Positions 7,555 to 24,080 of a stretch of 64,000 nt of DNA are shown here, piece after piece. Made by a program: the position numbers and the translations under genes. The notes below the pieces were generated by a model. The model saw only the letters and a list, made by a program, of their open reading frames with translations, did not search any database and had not been told where the DNA came from. Source of the DNA: Luteolibacter luteus (GTDB lineage Bacteria; Verrucomicrobiota; Verrucomicrobiia; Verrucomicrobiales; Akkermansiaceae); contig NZ_CP051774.1 in NCBI RefSeq assembly GCF_012913485.1, positions 5,704,001-5,768,000 of the forward strand. Reading direction: 5' to 3'. The stretch's first letter is position 1. Each line of letters begins with the position of its first letter.

Positions 7555-9342
7555 ATGCTTCCAGAGCACGCTCCCTTCTCTCCCGATCAACGCCGCGCGG
7601 TTGATATCGCGCTGGCAGGCCTTGATGCGTCCCAGCGTTTCTGGCTCGCCGGATTTCTTTCTGCCGGAGGGTCTTCCGCGACCGCGCCGGCAGCGATCAC
7701 GCCTGCGGCATCCGTGAAGCTGACGGTATTGTATGGCACCGAGTCCGGCAATGCCGAGAAGCTGGCAGACCTTTCCGCGAAAGAAGCCAAGAAGCGGGGC
7801 TTCCAAGCCGCGGTGAAGAACATGGCGGATATTTCTCCCGCCGATCTCGCGAAGGTGGAAAACCTTCTGGTGATCGTGAGCACCTGGGGTGATGGCGAGC
7901 CACCGGAGAGCGCCACCTCTTTCTACAAGGAATTCATGAATGGTTCCTCCGTGGAGCTGCCTCGCCTGCGCTACTCGGTGTGCGCGCTGGGGGATACGGC
8001 CTACGAGAAGTTTTGCCAGACGGGCAAGGACTTCGATGCCCGCTTGGAAAAGCTTGGAGCGAAGCGCGTCTCGCCACGTCAGGATTGCGATGTGGAGTAT
8101 GAAGAGCCGTACGCCGGCTGGCTGGATGCCGCTCTGAAGGCACTGGCTCCTGCGACGCACTCCGGGATCGTGGAAGTGGTGGGCGCTCCTGCCGCCGCTG
8201 CCCCGGTGGGCGGCGTGGAGTATGGAAAGAAGAACCCTTTTCCTTCCGAGCTTCTTGAGAAGGTGCTCCTCAATGGCGAGGGCACGACCAAGGAAACCTG
8301 GCACTACGAGCTTTCACTCGATGGCTCAGGCCTGAGCTACGAGCCGGGTGATGCGCTGGCCGTGGTGCCGGTGAATGCGCCGGATCTCGTCGAAGGCATC
8401 CTGAAGGCAGCGAAGCTTTCCGGCAGTGAGACCGTGGAGGTGAAGGGCGTGGGGAGCAAGGTGCTGGCCGATGCCCTGCGCGAGGATTTCGATATCACCG
8501 CTCTGTCCCGCGCCGTGCTGACGAAGCTGCAGACGATCTCCGGATCCGAGAAGCTCGCGGCCTTGCTCGCGGATGATGCGAAGGATCAGCTCAAGGATTA
8601 CCAGTGGGGCCGCTGGATCGTGGATGCGATCAATGACTTCGCTTCGAATGGTCTGGCCGCTGCCGATCTCGCATCGATCTTCCGCAAGCTGCCACCGCGC
8701 CTTTACTCGATCGCTTCCAGCCCTCTGGCGCATCCGGGTGAAGTGCACCTCACGGTGGCGTCCGTGCGCTATCACGCGCATGGCAATCATCGCAAGGGCG
8801 TGGCTTCGACCTATCTGGCCGACCTGGTGGCGAAGGGCGCTCAGGTGCCGGTCTACACACACCAGAACAAGAACTTCCGCCTGCCGACCTCGTCGGATAC
8901 TCCGGTGATCATGGTGGGACCCGGCACCGGCGTCGCGCCCTTCCGCGCCTTCGTCGAGCACCGCGGGAATCTGGGCAAGCCGGGCAAGAACTGGCTTTTC
9001 TTCGGAGACCAACGCTACACCTACGACTTCCTTTACCAGACGGAGTGGCAGGATCATCTCAAGGAAGGCTTCCTTTCGAAGCTGGATGTCGCTTTCTCCC
9101 GCGACCAGCCGGAGAAGGTCTATGTGCAGCACCGCATGCTGGATCGCTCCAAGGAGCTCTACGCCTGGCTGCAGGAAGGTGCCCACTTCTACGTCTGCGG
9201 CGATGCCTCGCGCATGGCCAGCGATGTCCACGAAGCCCTGATCTCCGTCGTGGAGAAAGAAGGCGGCTTCGCCCGCGACGTGGCGGAGGCCTACGTCGAA
9301 GACCTGAAGAAAGCCAAACGCTATCAACGAGACGTCTACTGA
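7555..9342 (+). CDS. cysJ: Sulfite reductase [NADPH] flavoprotein alpha-component
   Basis: 595 residues. An N-terminal ~55-residue linker precedes a flavodoxin domain (~57-205; FMN loop YGTESGNAEKLA and STWGDGEPPE). A CPR-type FAD domain follows (RLYSIASSP) and then the NADPH-binding domain (GPGTGVAPFRAFVEHR, CGDASRMASDVHEAL), ending in the family's aromatic C-terminus (YQRDVY). It passes electrons from NADPH through FAD and FMN to CysI for six-electron sulfite reduction to sulfide in the cytoplasm. First gene of the cysJIHK run. Length matches E. coli CysJ (~599). Confidence 0.95.
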   Translation: MLPEHAPFSPDQRRAVDIALAGLDASQRFWLAGFLSAGGSSATAPAAITPAASVKLTVLYGTESGNAEKLADLSAKEAKKRGFQAAVKNMADISPADLAKVENLLVIVSTWGDGEPPESATSFYKEFMNGSSVELPRLRYSVCALGDTAYEKFCQTGKDFDARLEKLGAKRVSPRQDCDVEYEEPYAGWLDAALKALAPATHSGIVEVVGAPAAAAPVGGVEYGKKNPFPSELLEKVLLNGEGTTKETWHYELSLDGSGLSYEPGDALAVVPVNAPDLVEGILKAAKLSGSETVEVKGVGSKVLADALREDFDITALSRAVLTKLQTISGSEKLAALLADDAKDQLKDYQWGRWIVDAINDFASNGLAAADLASIFRKLPPRLYSIASSPLAHPGEVHLTVASVRYHAHGNHRKGVASTYLADLVAKGAQVPVYTHQNKNFRLPTSSDTPVIMVGPGTGVAPFRAFVEHRGNLGKPGKNWLFFGDQRYTYDFLYQTEWQDHLKEGFLSKLDVAFSRDQPEKVYVQHRMLDRSKELYAWLQEGAHFYVCGDASRMASDVHEALISVVEKEGGFARDVAEAYVEDLKKAKRYQRDVY

Positions 9343-9480
9343 AGTGCCAAGTGATCAGTCAGCGGTGATCAGTGAAGCAGCCGCCATTGCAGCACTGGTC
9401 ACTTCTCCGAACCACCTAGCAGCTACCGAAAATCGATTTCTTCCACTGATCACCGATCACCCGGCACTGATCACTCCTTT
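9343..9480. repeat. TGATCA-rich imperfect inverted repeat filling the cysJ-cysI spacer
   Basis: The spacer contains four copies of TGATCA plus variants. The left arm carries AAGTGATCAGT and GGTGATCAGTGAAG (9350-9376). The right arm carries CTTCCACTGATCACC and CACTGATCACT (9440-9476), their reverse complements. About 65 bases separate the arms, and a CACTGGTCACTTC variant lies in the loop. In the cys mRNA this would fold into a long hairpin between two subunit genes of one enzyme. Confidence 0.75.
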
Positions 9481-21365: not shown

Positions 21366-22901
21366 ATGGCATCGCGCATCAAACTGCTTTTCGTCGTCAT
21401 CGTCCTGGTGCTGATCGGCGGCGGGATAGCGGCTTATAAAAATGCCGTCCTCGGCTTGCCACTTCGTGCGGGTTATCTGCCGCCGGAGTGGATGATCGAG
21501 GCGAAGCTGACCTTCCTCGCGGATGACGAGAAGGTGCGTGCGGAGCTTTCGATTCCTGCGGCGGCGGTCGATGAAGGCTTGAGTCCCGAAGCGGGGTCGG
21601 TCGGCTATAATTATTACGTCGAGAAGGATCAGGGTGAATACACCGCGGTGTGGACCTCTGAAAAACAGAGCCAGAATCAGGCACTCTACTACCGGATCAA
21701 TTTCCTCGATCGCAAGAAGAGCGGCGGCGAACCCATCCCGCATCCCGGCGGTGGATTCCCGGTTCCGGAGAGCCCCGGCTTTTCCGGAGCGCTGGAAGAT
21801 GGTGCGAAGCGCGTGATCCAGCGCGCGAAGGCCGTGTCTGCGGATCCCGATTCCCTTTTCGTCGGGATTTTCCGCGAGGTCGTGGCCATCCAGTCATCGC
21901 AGGAGATCGGCCTGTTGCGTGCGCGCTATGAAGATGAAGCCGGGCGTGGTGCGCTGACGGTGCTGGGCATCGATCTGCTGAACATGGCAGGAGTGCCGGC
22001 GCGCCTCGCTTATGGGGTGAAGCTGGAAGAGGCGCGCGGCGGGCAGCAGCCTACGCGCTTGGTCGAGTATTATGACGGTGCCTACTGGAAGGTGCGGGAC
22101 CCTGATGATCCGGGATCGACCCTCGATCCCTCGAAGATCTTCGTGTGGCACCGCGGTGGAGGTGCGCTTTTCGAAGTGACGGGCGGTGAGTCGTCAAAGC
22201 TGAGCTTCACGGTGACGCGCGATTTCATCCGTCCGGCGGAGATGGCAAACCTAAGGGAGTCGCCGCTGGTGATTTCCACGATCTTCGGTCTCCCTGCGTC
22301 CGAGCGTGATGTCTTCCGCTATGTGGTGCTGATTCCCCTGGGGGCATTCGTGGTGGTGGTGATGCGGAATCTTGTGGGCATTGCCACGCTGGGCACGTTC
22401 ATGCCGGTGCTGCTGGCGCTCGCTCTGCTGGAGATGAAGTTGGAGAGCGGTTTGATCATGTTTACCGTGATCGTGACCGTAGGCCTGTGGATCCGCTTCC
22501 TGCTATCGCGACTGAACATGCTCGTGGTCCCGCGCGTGGCGGCATGTGTGGTGATCGTGACCTTGCTGATGATGGTGCTGAGCGTGGTGAGCTACCGGTT
22601 GGGGATGATGGATGGTCTCCGGATCACGCTTTTCCCGATGATCATTCTCGCTTGGACCATCGAGCGCATGTCGCTGATTTGGGAAGAGGAAGGCAAGCGC
22701 TCGGCCATCATGCAGGTGGGCGGTTCCGTGCTAGTCGCGGTGATTGCCTATTCCTTCATGAGCGTCCCGCAGGTGAAGTATTGGGCCTTCTACTTCCCCG
22801 AGCTGCTGCTGGTGTTGTTGGCCTGCATCATCCTGATCGGACGTTATACGGGTTACCGTTTGTCGGAGCTGGTGCGCTTCCGGGATTTCAAGGAGGTTTG
22901 A
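21366..22901 (+). CDS. Inactive transglutaminase fused to seven transmembrane helices (UUP1 / 7TM_transglut family)
   Basis: 511 residues. N-terminal signal anchor (LLFVVIVLVLIGGGIAAY), an extracytoplasmic domain (~30-310) with a transglutaminase-like core (VLGIDLLNMAGVPARLAYG...YYDGAYWKVRDPDD), then about seven helices (~318-500) and a short cytoplasmic tail. The positions normally occupied by the catalytic Cys and His of transglutaminases are not Cys or His here, so the domain should bind rather than cleave or cross-link peptides. The gene lies 27 bases after the retropepsin gene and 195 bases before the ATP-grasp gene. This neighbourhood is conserved in many Gram-negative bacteria; its product has not been established as far as I know. 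Confidence 0.85.
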   Translation: MASRIKLLFVVIVLVLIGGGIAAYKNAVLGLPLRAGYLPPEWMIEAKLTFLADDEKVRAELSIPAAAVDEGLSPEAGSVGYNYYVEKDQGEYTAVWTSEKQSQNQALYYRINFLDRKKSGGEPIPHPGGGFPVPESPGFSGALEDGAKRVIQRAKAVSADPDSLFVGIFREVVAIQSSQEIGLLRARYEDEAGRGALTVLGIDLLNMAGVPARLAYGVKLEEARGGQQPTRLVEYYDGAYWKVRDPDDPGSTLDPSKIFVWHRGGGALFEVTGGESSKLSFTVTRDFIRPAEMANLRESPLVISTIFGLPASERDVFRYVVLIPLGAFVVVVMRNLVGIATLGTFMPVLLALALLEMKLESGLIMFTVIVTVGLWIRFLLSRLNMLVVPRVAACVVIVTLLMMVLSVVSYRLGMMDGLRITLFPMIILAWTIERMSLIWEEEGKRSAIMQVGGSVLVAVIAYSFMSVPQVKYWAFYFPELLLVLLACIILIGRYTGYRLSELVRFRDFKEV

Positions 22902-22904
22902 AGG

Positions 22905-23092
22905 AGACTCAAGACTTGAAGACGCAAGAGCCAAGACTGGAGGCGAAACAGAAGATAAGAAGACCAAATCCAGAAGACCAGAGGAGATGAACTCATACCT
23001 TTCCCCTTGGTCTTCACCGTATCTTCCAGTGCTCCAAATCCCTTTCTCTCCTCAAGTCTTGCGTCTTGCGTCTTCAAGTCTTGAGTCCCTGC
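22905..23092. repeat. Long imperfect inverted repeat filling the 7TM / ATP-grasp spacer
   Basis: The left arm starts GACTCAAGACTTGAAGACGC at 22906 and the right arm ends with its exact complement near 23088, a 20-base match. Similarity continues inward through CAAGA.CAAGACT.GAGG and again at AGAAGAT..GAAGACCAA, so nearly the entire 195-base spacer folds on itself around ~23000. The words CAAGACTTGAAGACG and AAGACCA recur in each arm. Confidence 0.85.
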
Positions 23093-23096
23093 CTTT

Positions 23097-24080
23097 ATGA
23101 AACGTTGGTGGCACCGATGGATCCGCACTCCCGGCGAACTGCGCGCCATGGGGGTGGTGGGGATCAACATGCGGAACGCCCGCTTCCTGCTGCCGAACAA
23201 TCCGCGGAAGCTTTACGACCTCGTCGATAACAAGATCCGCACGAAGCAGCTGGCGATCGACCACAAGATGGCCGTCCCGGAAACGTATGCAGTGGTGCGA
23301 AACCCGCACGACACCTCGGTGCTGGAGAAGTTGCTGAAGGGTAGAGAATCTTTCGTAATCAAACCTGCCCGCGGTTCCGGTGGAAAGGGGGTGCTGGTCA
23401 TCGTGGCACGGGAAGGCGGCTATTTCATCAAGCCAAGCGGCTCGCGACTGACTCTCGATGAACTGAAGCATCATTGCTCGAATATTCTCGCGGGGCTCTT
23501 CAGCCTCGGGGGACGTCGCGACGTCGGCTTGATCGAATACCGCGTGCATCCGGCAAAGGTGCTGACGGAGATCAGTTTCCAAGGTGCGCCGGACATCCGT
23601 GTGGTGATGTTGAAGGGCTATCCGGTCATGGCCATGCTGCGGGCCGCGACGCGTGAGTCCGATGGCCGCGCGAACCTTCATCAGGGTGCCATTGGTATCG
23701 GTATCGATCTCGCGACAGGACGCACGGTGCGTGCGGTGCATCACGGTCATCCGATCGAGCGGCACCCGGACCTGAAGGTTCCGGTGGTGGGCGTGCAATT
23801 GCCCCACTGGGATGCGATCCTCGATATCGCGGTGACCTGCCACGAGATGACCCGCCTCGGTTATCTGGGCGTGGACATCATGATCGATGAGGATTTGGGC
23901 CCGCTGATGATCGAGGTGAACGCCCGTCCCGGCCTAGCCATCCAGCTTGCCAACGGTGTCGGCCTCATGAGGCGTTTGGAGCCAGCTCTGGAGAGATCAC
24001 AGAGCCATCCTCATGATAGCCACGACCAGAAGATCGCGTTTTCGCGGGAGGCATTCGGGGTGAAGCTTTCCGCGCCTTGA
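23097..24080 (+). CDS. RimK-like alpha-L-glutamate ligase family protein (ATP-grasp)
   Basis: 327 residues. The N-terminal helical region contains MRNARFLLPNNPRKLYDLVDNK. The ATP-grasp core shows FVIKPARGSGGKGVLVI (nucleotide-binding lysine and glycine loop, ~85-101), FQGAPDIRVVMLKGYPVMAMLR, and the metal-binding LGVDIMIDEDLGPLMIEVNARPGLAIQ. The fold joins a carboxylate to an amine with ATP, via an acyl phosphate. Gene-neighbourhood work on amidoligases grouped this protein with the inactive transglutaminase 7TM protein and the PF05618 protease. Here all three are in that order. It has no signal peptide, so it acts in the cytoplasm. The acceptor is unknown; calling it glutamate-specific is an extrapolation from RimK. 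Confidence 0.85.
   Translation: MKRWWHRWIRTPGELRAMGVVGINMRNARFLLPNNPRKLYDLVDNKIRTKQLAIDHKMAVPETYAVVRNPHDTSVLEKLLKGRESFVIKPARGSGGKGVLVIVAREGGYFIKPSGSRLTLDELKHHCSNILAGLFSLGGRRDVGLIEYRVHPAKVLTEISFQGAPDIRVVMLKGYPVMAMLRAATRESDGRANLHQGAIGIGIDLATGRTVRAVHHGHPIERHPDLKVPVVGVQLPHWDAILDIAVTCHEMTRLGYLGVDIMIDEDLGPLMIEVNARPGLAIQLANGVGLMRRLEPALERSQSHPHDSHDQKIAFSREAFGVKLSAP

Follow-up and report, generated by a model that had tools for sequence, protein, structure and literature searches.

The spacer between the genes for a 7TM protein and an ATP-grasp protein in Luteolibacter luteus is filled by a long hairpin. We propose that this hairpin is probably an inverted pair of a dispersed, heptad-type gene-boundary repeat that was inserted at this junction, the words of the repeat being what is kept and the hairpin a by-product. 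The window, that is, the whole stretch of 64,000 nucleotides that was analyzed, holds the following features, numbered from its first letter.

21366 to 22901, forward strand: upstream gene, encoding an inactive transglutaminase fused to seven transmembrane helices (Pfam 7TM_transglut and Transglut_i_TM)
22899 to 22901, forward strand: TGA stop codon of the upstream (7TM) gene
22902 to 23096, no strand: insert of 195 nt, from stop to start; orthologous junctions elsewhere are empty, with overlapping stop and start codons
22905 to 22943, forward strand: left (stop-side) arm AGACTCAAGACTTGAAGACGCAAGAGCCAAGACTGGAGG, from the template scan and flank call; its outer end lies 3 nt past the stop codon
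22946 to 23027, no strand: interior, with a weaker AAGAC/GTCTT pair
22946 to 22978: degenerate inner arm, agreeing with the template at 20 of 24 positions
23050 to 23088, reverse strand: right (start-side) arm, reverse complement GGACTCAAGACTTGAAGACGCAAGACGCAAGACTTGAGG; its outer end lies 8 nt upstream of the ATG
23089 to 23096, forward strand: leader CTGCCTTT, immediately 5' of the ATG, without a Shine-Dalgarno-like 4-mer
23097 to 24080, forward strand: downstream gene, encoding an ATP-grasp protein (ATPgrasp_ST / RimK-like, Pfam)
9343 to 9475, no strand: second hairpin within the window, of the same layout, with the heptad word AGTGATC/GGTGATC

The sequence GACTCAAGACTTGAAGACGC at 22906-22925 is exactly complementary to 23068-23087, and the ungapped arms 22906-22951 and 23042-23087, which are 87% complementary, form the longest of the 14 inverted pairs lying at most 300 nt apart in the 64-kb window. 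Folding of 22880-23120 as RNA gave -103 kcal/mol, against -66.1 (sd 4.8) in 200 dinucleotide shuffles (z -7.7), none of which was equally stable, and the outer stem runs unbroken through 24 perfect base pairs. The first-pass annotation, which had described a giant imperfect hairpin across the whole spacer (195 nt between the TGA at 22899-22901 and the ATG at 23097) with a 20-base exact inverted match at its outer ends, and which had proposed the folding as a check, was right on these points, as it was in noting that CAAGAC, AAGACG and TTGAAG recur within both arms and that no transposase lies inside. We also agree that the hairpin is not an intrinsic terminator, which would have a short GC stem and a T run: no terminator-like or promoter-like site was found in 22600-23400. 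A known Rfam RNA was likewise rejected, no match in the window exceeding the gathering threshold. What the annotation had missed is the regular 7-8-7-7 grid of words and the recurrence of the arms elsewhere. Tandem Repeats Finder reported nothing at this spacer, and neither lag-7 nor tandem repeat scans of the window detected heptad arrays, which escape such scans because of their 8-nt step and their linkers.

Each arm is a repeat of about 39 nt in which AAGAC words are spaced 7-8-7-7 with variable linkers of 2 to 3 nt, and the hairpin consists of two copies in opposite orientation. Using a template built from loci fetched in this genome and in congeners, with identical arms counted once, we obtained 122 distinct arms out of 128; the word positions were 87-99% uniform and both the 2-nt and the 3-nt linkers were variable. 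The grid also emerged without the template, a spacing of 8-7-7 or 7-8-7-7 being found in 55 of 63 runs of at least four words in the genus, where the loci had mostly been picked by a 7-7 pattern, and in 58 of 61 such runs in genome G233, where they had been picked by an 8-7-7 pattern. The annotation had suggested searching for the arm words in the genome and in sister species, and they proved to be dispersed in both and in another family. The own genome (G000) has 14 matches to AAGACNNAAGACNNAAGAC, three spaced AAGAC words with at most one mismatch, and no match to the reversed pattern; the three-word pattern is present in 15 of 18 genomes of the genus, this one included. Of 387 genomes sampled from the phylum, 11 contain the full-arm pattern, and none of these 11 has its reversed version. 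Nine of the 11 belong to the same order as L. luteus, namely, 4 of 6 from the genus (L. luteus included), 2 from another genus of the family and 3 of 6 from a second family; the other two have a single one-mismatch match each. G233, which belongs to another family, holds 108 full-arm copies. The genus set comprises 33 inverted pairs and 56 solitary arms, and the set from G233 and G083 comprises 15 pairs and 65 solitary arms; these proportions refer to sampled loci and not to whole genomes, the genus loci having mostly been chosen by the three-word pattern on one arm and only part of the matches fetched. Some loci overlap, and at L033 and at L038 two or more sets of arms share a spacer. A scan of viral contigs, made with spread by phage in mind, gave 14 stretches. 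In the literature searched, we found no description of AAGAC arrays in Verrucomicrobiota.

The 7TM/ATP-grasp junction was compared in the 15 genomes of the genus that have the ATP-grasp gene. In seven of them (G003, G004, G007, G008, G013, G016 and G017) the junction is empty, with the stop and start codons overlapping as TGATG or ATGA, and in the other eight, that of L. luteus included, it holds an insert of 68-195 nt. Because the alternative state of the junction is a stop/start overlap, we take insertion to be the best account of the 195 nt. A recognizable arm (at least 18 of 24 template positions) is present in seven of the eight inserts, that of G002 falling short. The first-pass annotation had named absence from all close relatives among the observations that would reduce the hairpin to a recent neutral insertion; the nearest relative is indeed empty, exactly lacking the insert, but 7 of the 14 other genomes carry one. 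In a tree built from two proteins, the carrier G000 is the sister of the empty G007 (support 1.0) inside the group of carriers, in which deep support is weak (0.385 and 0.426), and all six remaining empty genomes lie outside it. The pattern fits either a single old gain that was lost again exactly in G007 or an independent gain in G000. In most inserts the ATP-grasp frame reads through the array, which thereby becomes an N-terminal extension; the in-frame inserts of L055, L058, L059, L060 and L061 give the ATP-grasp proteins Ser/Lys- or Pro-rich N-terminal tails. Rickettsia palindromic elements are hairpin repeats lying within coding genes, and the ATP-grasp extensions resemble them in that a hairpin repeat has turned into part of an open reading frame; the arms differ from them in lying at gene ends and in sequence.

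With gene starts and stops assigned by a simple rule based on open frames and GC3, which left 9 of 110 arms in the genus and 23 of 95 in G233/G083 without a call, the outer end of an arm typically lies 0-4 nt past a stop codon or 5-8 nt ahead of a start codon. The genus flank table took 44 of the 56 solitary arms (score of at least 22), and that of G233/G083 used all 65. In the genus, the outer (AGAC) end falls at -1 to 4 nt relative to the stop codon for 33 of the 40 stop-facing arms and at 5-8 nt from the start codon for 35 of the 61 start-facing arms. Stop distances are broader in G233, with many at 12-21 nt, mainly owing to a small hairpin that sits between stop and arm, and start distances there are scattered. 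The leader between arm and start is pyrimidine rich, resembling GTCTYTTCCC-ATG, with C at -1 in 29 of 36 cases.

Such leaders would suit a translation signal in which the start-side arm and the pyrimidine leader recruit ribosomes in place of a Shine-Dalgarno sequence, the stop-side arms being secondary. The model for this reading is the TAACTGA heptamer, whose direct repeats lie at start codons in Beggiatoaceae (MacGregor 2015, PMC4679880, as far as the accessible part of that paper goes). Like the AAGAC arrays, the TAACTGA repeats of that text form intergenic heptad units, are patchy across lineages and mostly stand just 5' of start codons, mostly without a Shine-Dalgarno sequence (PMC4679880). 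Here, too, we found intergenic arrays of 7-nt units, apart from one 8-nt step, with 35 of 61 start-facing arms at 5-8 nt from the start and no Shine-Dalgarno-like 4-mer ahead of any of the 36 close arm-bearing starts. Moreover, a second repeat family of these genomes reads TCACTGA in sense, one letter off the TAACTGA of Beggiatoaceae starts (PMC4679880, accessible part). However, Shine-Dalgarno-like 4-mers are rare anyway, preceding only 6 of 41 genes of the window; stop-side arms are placed as precisely in the genus; and solitary arms in G233/G083 face stops (34) more often than starts (12), 19 having no call. The units are also not identical in tandem, given the variable linkers, the 8-nt step and the blank result of Tandem Repeats Finder, and the 7-8-7-7 grid, the free linkers, the inverted pairs and the oppositely oriented stop-side arms set the AAGAC arms apart from the TAACTGA repeats as described in the accessible text, where a single indirect repeat is recorded for the main genome (PMC4679880). 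A translation signal of this kind is thus possible, though on the unlikely side.

Singlets and inverted pairs would also suit a REP/REPIN element mobilized by a RAYT (Y1 tyrosine) transposase, a reading that we consider unlikely. In the accessible part of Di Nocera 2013 (PMC3733652), REP/REPIN elements are dispersed extragenic units that occur singly or as inverted dimers and often lie 3' of genes, as the AAGAC arms do; extragenic pairs and solitary arms (33 and 56 in the genus set) are what we observed. The same text mentions RPE-4/6 of Rickettsia (PMC3733652). In G233/G083, 44 of 95 arms have a directly adjacent small hairpin (stem of at least 5), against about 3 expected from shuffling; in G233 it reads CCCGC-NNN-GCGGG, lies directly outside the arm (as at L280, L299 and L313), often just past the stop, and shows the compensatory variants CCGGC/GCCGG, CCCAC/GTGGG and CCGAC/GTCGG. 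At L357 (G233:C31, 1-960), a Y1_Tnp (RAYT-like) gene is flanked on both sides by AAGAC arms and small GC hairpins, the whole being enclosed by imperfect inverted repeats of about 200 nt. Against this reading, only 2 of the 13 Y1_Tnp loci of G233 have arms nearby (on both sides at one and on one side at the other), as do none of 9 in G083 (one weak match of 18/24) and 1 of 26 in the genus, where the arms are about 670 nt off at another junction; none of the 26 genus loci is flanked by arms. On these counts, the link to RAYT as the mobilizing enzyme is weak. Genus arms, moreover, seldom have an adjacent hairpin with a stem of at least 5 (7 of 122, about 2 expected), and the arm itself is a nonpalindromic array of words: its consensus does not show the palindromic unit of 20-40 nt with an unpaired GTAG or CGTC end that marks the REPs of the accessible text (PMC3733652), and neither a GTAG/CGTC-tagged palindrome nor a strong transposase association was seen. 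Taken together, the closest known kinds are the TAACTGA/STRR heptad repeats and REP/REPIN, the arms being heptad-type with a REPIN-like organization. Cyanobacterial STRRs are the heptad-repeat kind with which the arms are compared here.

The second word family, GTGATCR, forms arrays in 15 of 18 genomes of the genus, spaced as strict heptads. Its hairpin in the window (9343-9475) begins directly past a TGA (9340-9342) and ends 17 nt upstream of an ATG (9493). Three orthologous junctions are hybrids, L221 (G006), L071 (G007) and L076 (G012), with AAGAC on the stop side and GATCAC on the start side; because these arms are not complementary, the junctions cannot form a long stem. In one case, words are swapped between sister species: ahead of the same gene, ATGAAATACAT, G006 (L116) has a GTCTT arm and G011 (L240) a GATCAC arm, and both arrays supply the stop codon of the upstream gene. 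A GTGATC/GATCAC hairpin also lies at the junction ahead of a gene starting MSNQGTIVQVIGAVVD in L217 (G002) and L243 (G014); we take this gene to resemble atpD. Further tandem heptad words, CGGCACT, GCCATCT, GGGAGAT and ACTGCCC, were seen in L220 (G005:C66), L128 (G006) and L357 near 1230-1275, which suggests that these genomes hold more word families. A rather unlikely extension of these observations would be a rewritable slot, in which a putative machinery fills exactly the gap from stop to start with arrays of differing words (AAGACNN, AGTGATC and others), freely combined, and swaps words at the same gene between sister species, so that the array would be a gene-boundary mark independent of the sequence family. 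A comparable case is P6b of the Nostoc tRNA-Leu intron, where, in the accessible part of PMC4476775, the stem arms are likewise made of 7-nt units and one of two unrelated word classes has repeatedly replaced the other at the same site, as in the swap described here. Those heptads occupy one intron position (PMC4476775), whereas the AAGAC arms lie at dispersed gene boundaries.

RNA structure, the main point of the first-pass annotation, did not find support. A hairpin selected for its structure might separate the expression of the two cistrons, bring stop and start together for reinitiation or shield the mRNA from decay, and the very stable fold (z -7.7), the base of the stem near the stop and start codons and the pairing of the words of both arms all speak for it. 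The AAGAC hairpin of the window is, furthermore, among the two best paired of the 33 genus pairs (0.82), a point against our preferred reading. However, under selection for a stem the linkers of the two arms should match, and they match no better than those of shuffled partners: the matching within the 33 genus pairs was 0.482, against 0.456 with shuffled partners (z 1.25), z was -0.48 for the 15 pairs of G233/G083, and linker identity over all 48 pairs was 0.449 against 0.436 (z 0.75). In addition, solitary arms outnumber pairs in the sampled loci (56 against 33 and 65 against 15), noncomplementary arms occupy the same places, the family is dispersed and the nearest relative is exactly without the insert. 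Among orthologous arms, words were 0.940 and linkers 0.558 identical, and among nonorthologous arms, 0.938 and 0.501, as judged from 82 nonindependent orthologous pairs in 11 hand-labeled sets of arms scoring at least 20/24 with a stop/start call; the linkers retain a slight trace of common descent, and the words are equally uniform everywhere.

The MoxR-DUF58 junction, compared in 17 genomes with genes named by reading of the sequence, bears on the same question. Its spacer ranges from 5 to 364 nt, with clear arms in G000, G001, G002, G006, G011 and G013. The arms are degenerate in G007 and G012, reduced to short remnants in G009, G010 and perhaps G014, and missing from G005, G008 and G016. 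The spacers of G003, G004 and G017 are of another sort; that of G017 (L382) holds an unrelated long inverted repeat (GGAGTGCGGAGGCTTGCCTCCGC...). Four orthologs are all exactly 133 nt long, and in five of their six pairs the words are 0.90-0.96 identical and the loops 0.45-0.58. In G001/G002, the closest pair by junction sequence, the words (0.88) are hardly better kept than the loop (0.82), which argues against steady purifying selection there. In the four orthologs, the share of paired cells is 82%; shuffles give 81% and sliding gives at most 48%, so that a stem is always possible, a point against reading sequence rather than structure as what is kept. Three pairs changed on both sides, and the covariation score was not significant, being matched by 46 of 500 shuffles. 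On balance, what is kept seems to be the repeat sequence rather than the RNA stem, and selection for the stem is decidedly doubtful.

The ribbon-helix-helix protein omega binds heptads, and MetJ binds AGACGTCT boxes, both cooperatively. By analogy, the arms might be operator-like DNA arrays for such a protein, which the fixed words, the free linkers, the rate of about one word per heptad and the occurrence of both orientations would fit, as would the fact that stop-side and start-side arms are identical as duplex DNA and not as RNA. Yet the neighboring genes have no evident common function and a DNA-binding site needs no flush placement at stop and start codons, and we find this quite improbable. 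Functionless heptanucleotide slippage, to which pure tandem runs (AAGACTG in G008:C7, and G006:C105) could be ascribed, is hardly credible, being already disfavored by the conserved geometry, in which one 8-nt step keeps its place within 7-8-7-7 in two families, and by the precise codon-relative positions in the genus.

We therefore return to the inverted pair of inserted gene-boundary repeats. Since the words are kept, recognition by a protein or by a copying machinery is most likely, and the words would serve as the recognition sequence of a putative copying or DNA/RNA-binding factor. The hairpin would then simply result from two oppositely oriented arms. By breaking the overlap, the insert would uncouple the start of the ATP-grasp gene from termination of the 7TM gene, and the ATP-grasp gene would start from its own leader devoid of a Shine-Dalgarno sequence. 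Because the stop/start overlap is lost, coupling between the two cistrons is likely, on general grounds, to be affected, and an effect on the mRNA of the operon is plausible.

Heptad repeats at start codons have been reported earlier from unrelated bacteria, without a mechanism. The genomes compared here offer natural controls: some sites are empty, arms occur both alone and in inverted or hybrid pairs, two sister species differ in their words before one gene, and some copies have been captured as protein N termini. These controls make three questions testable: which part is recognized, the words or the stem; what writes the arrays; and how they affect translation at operon junctions.
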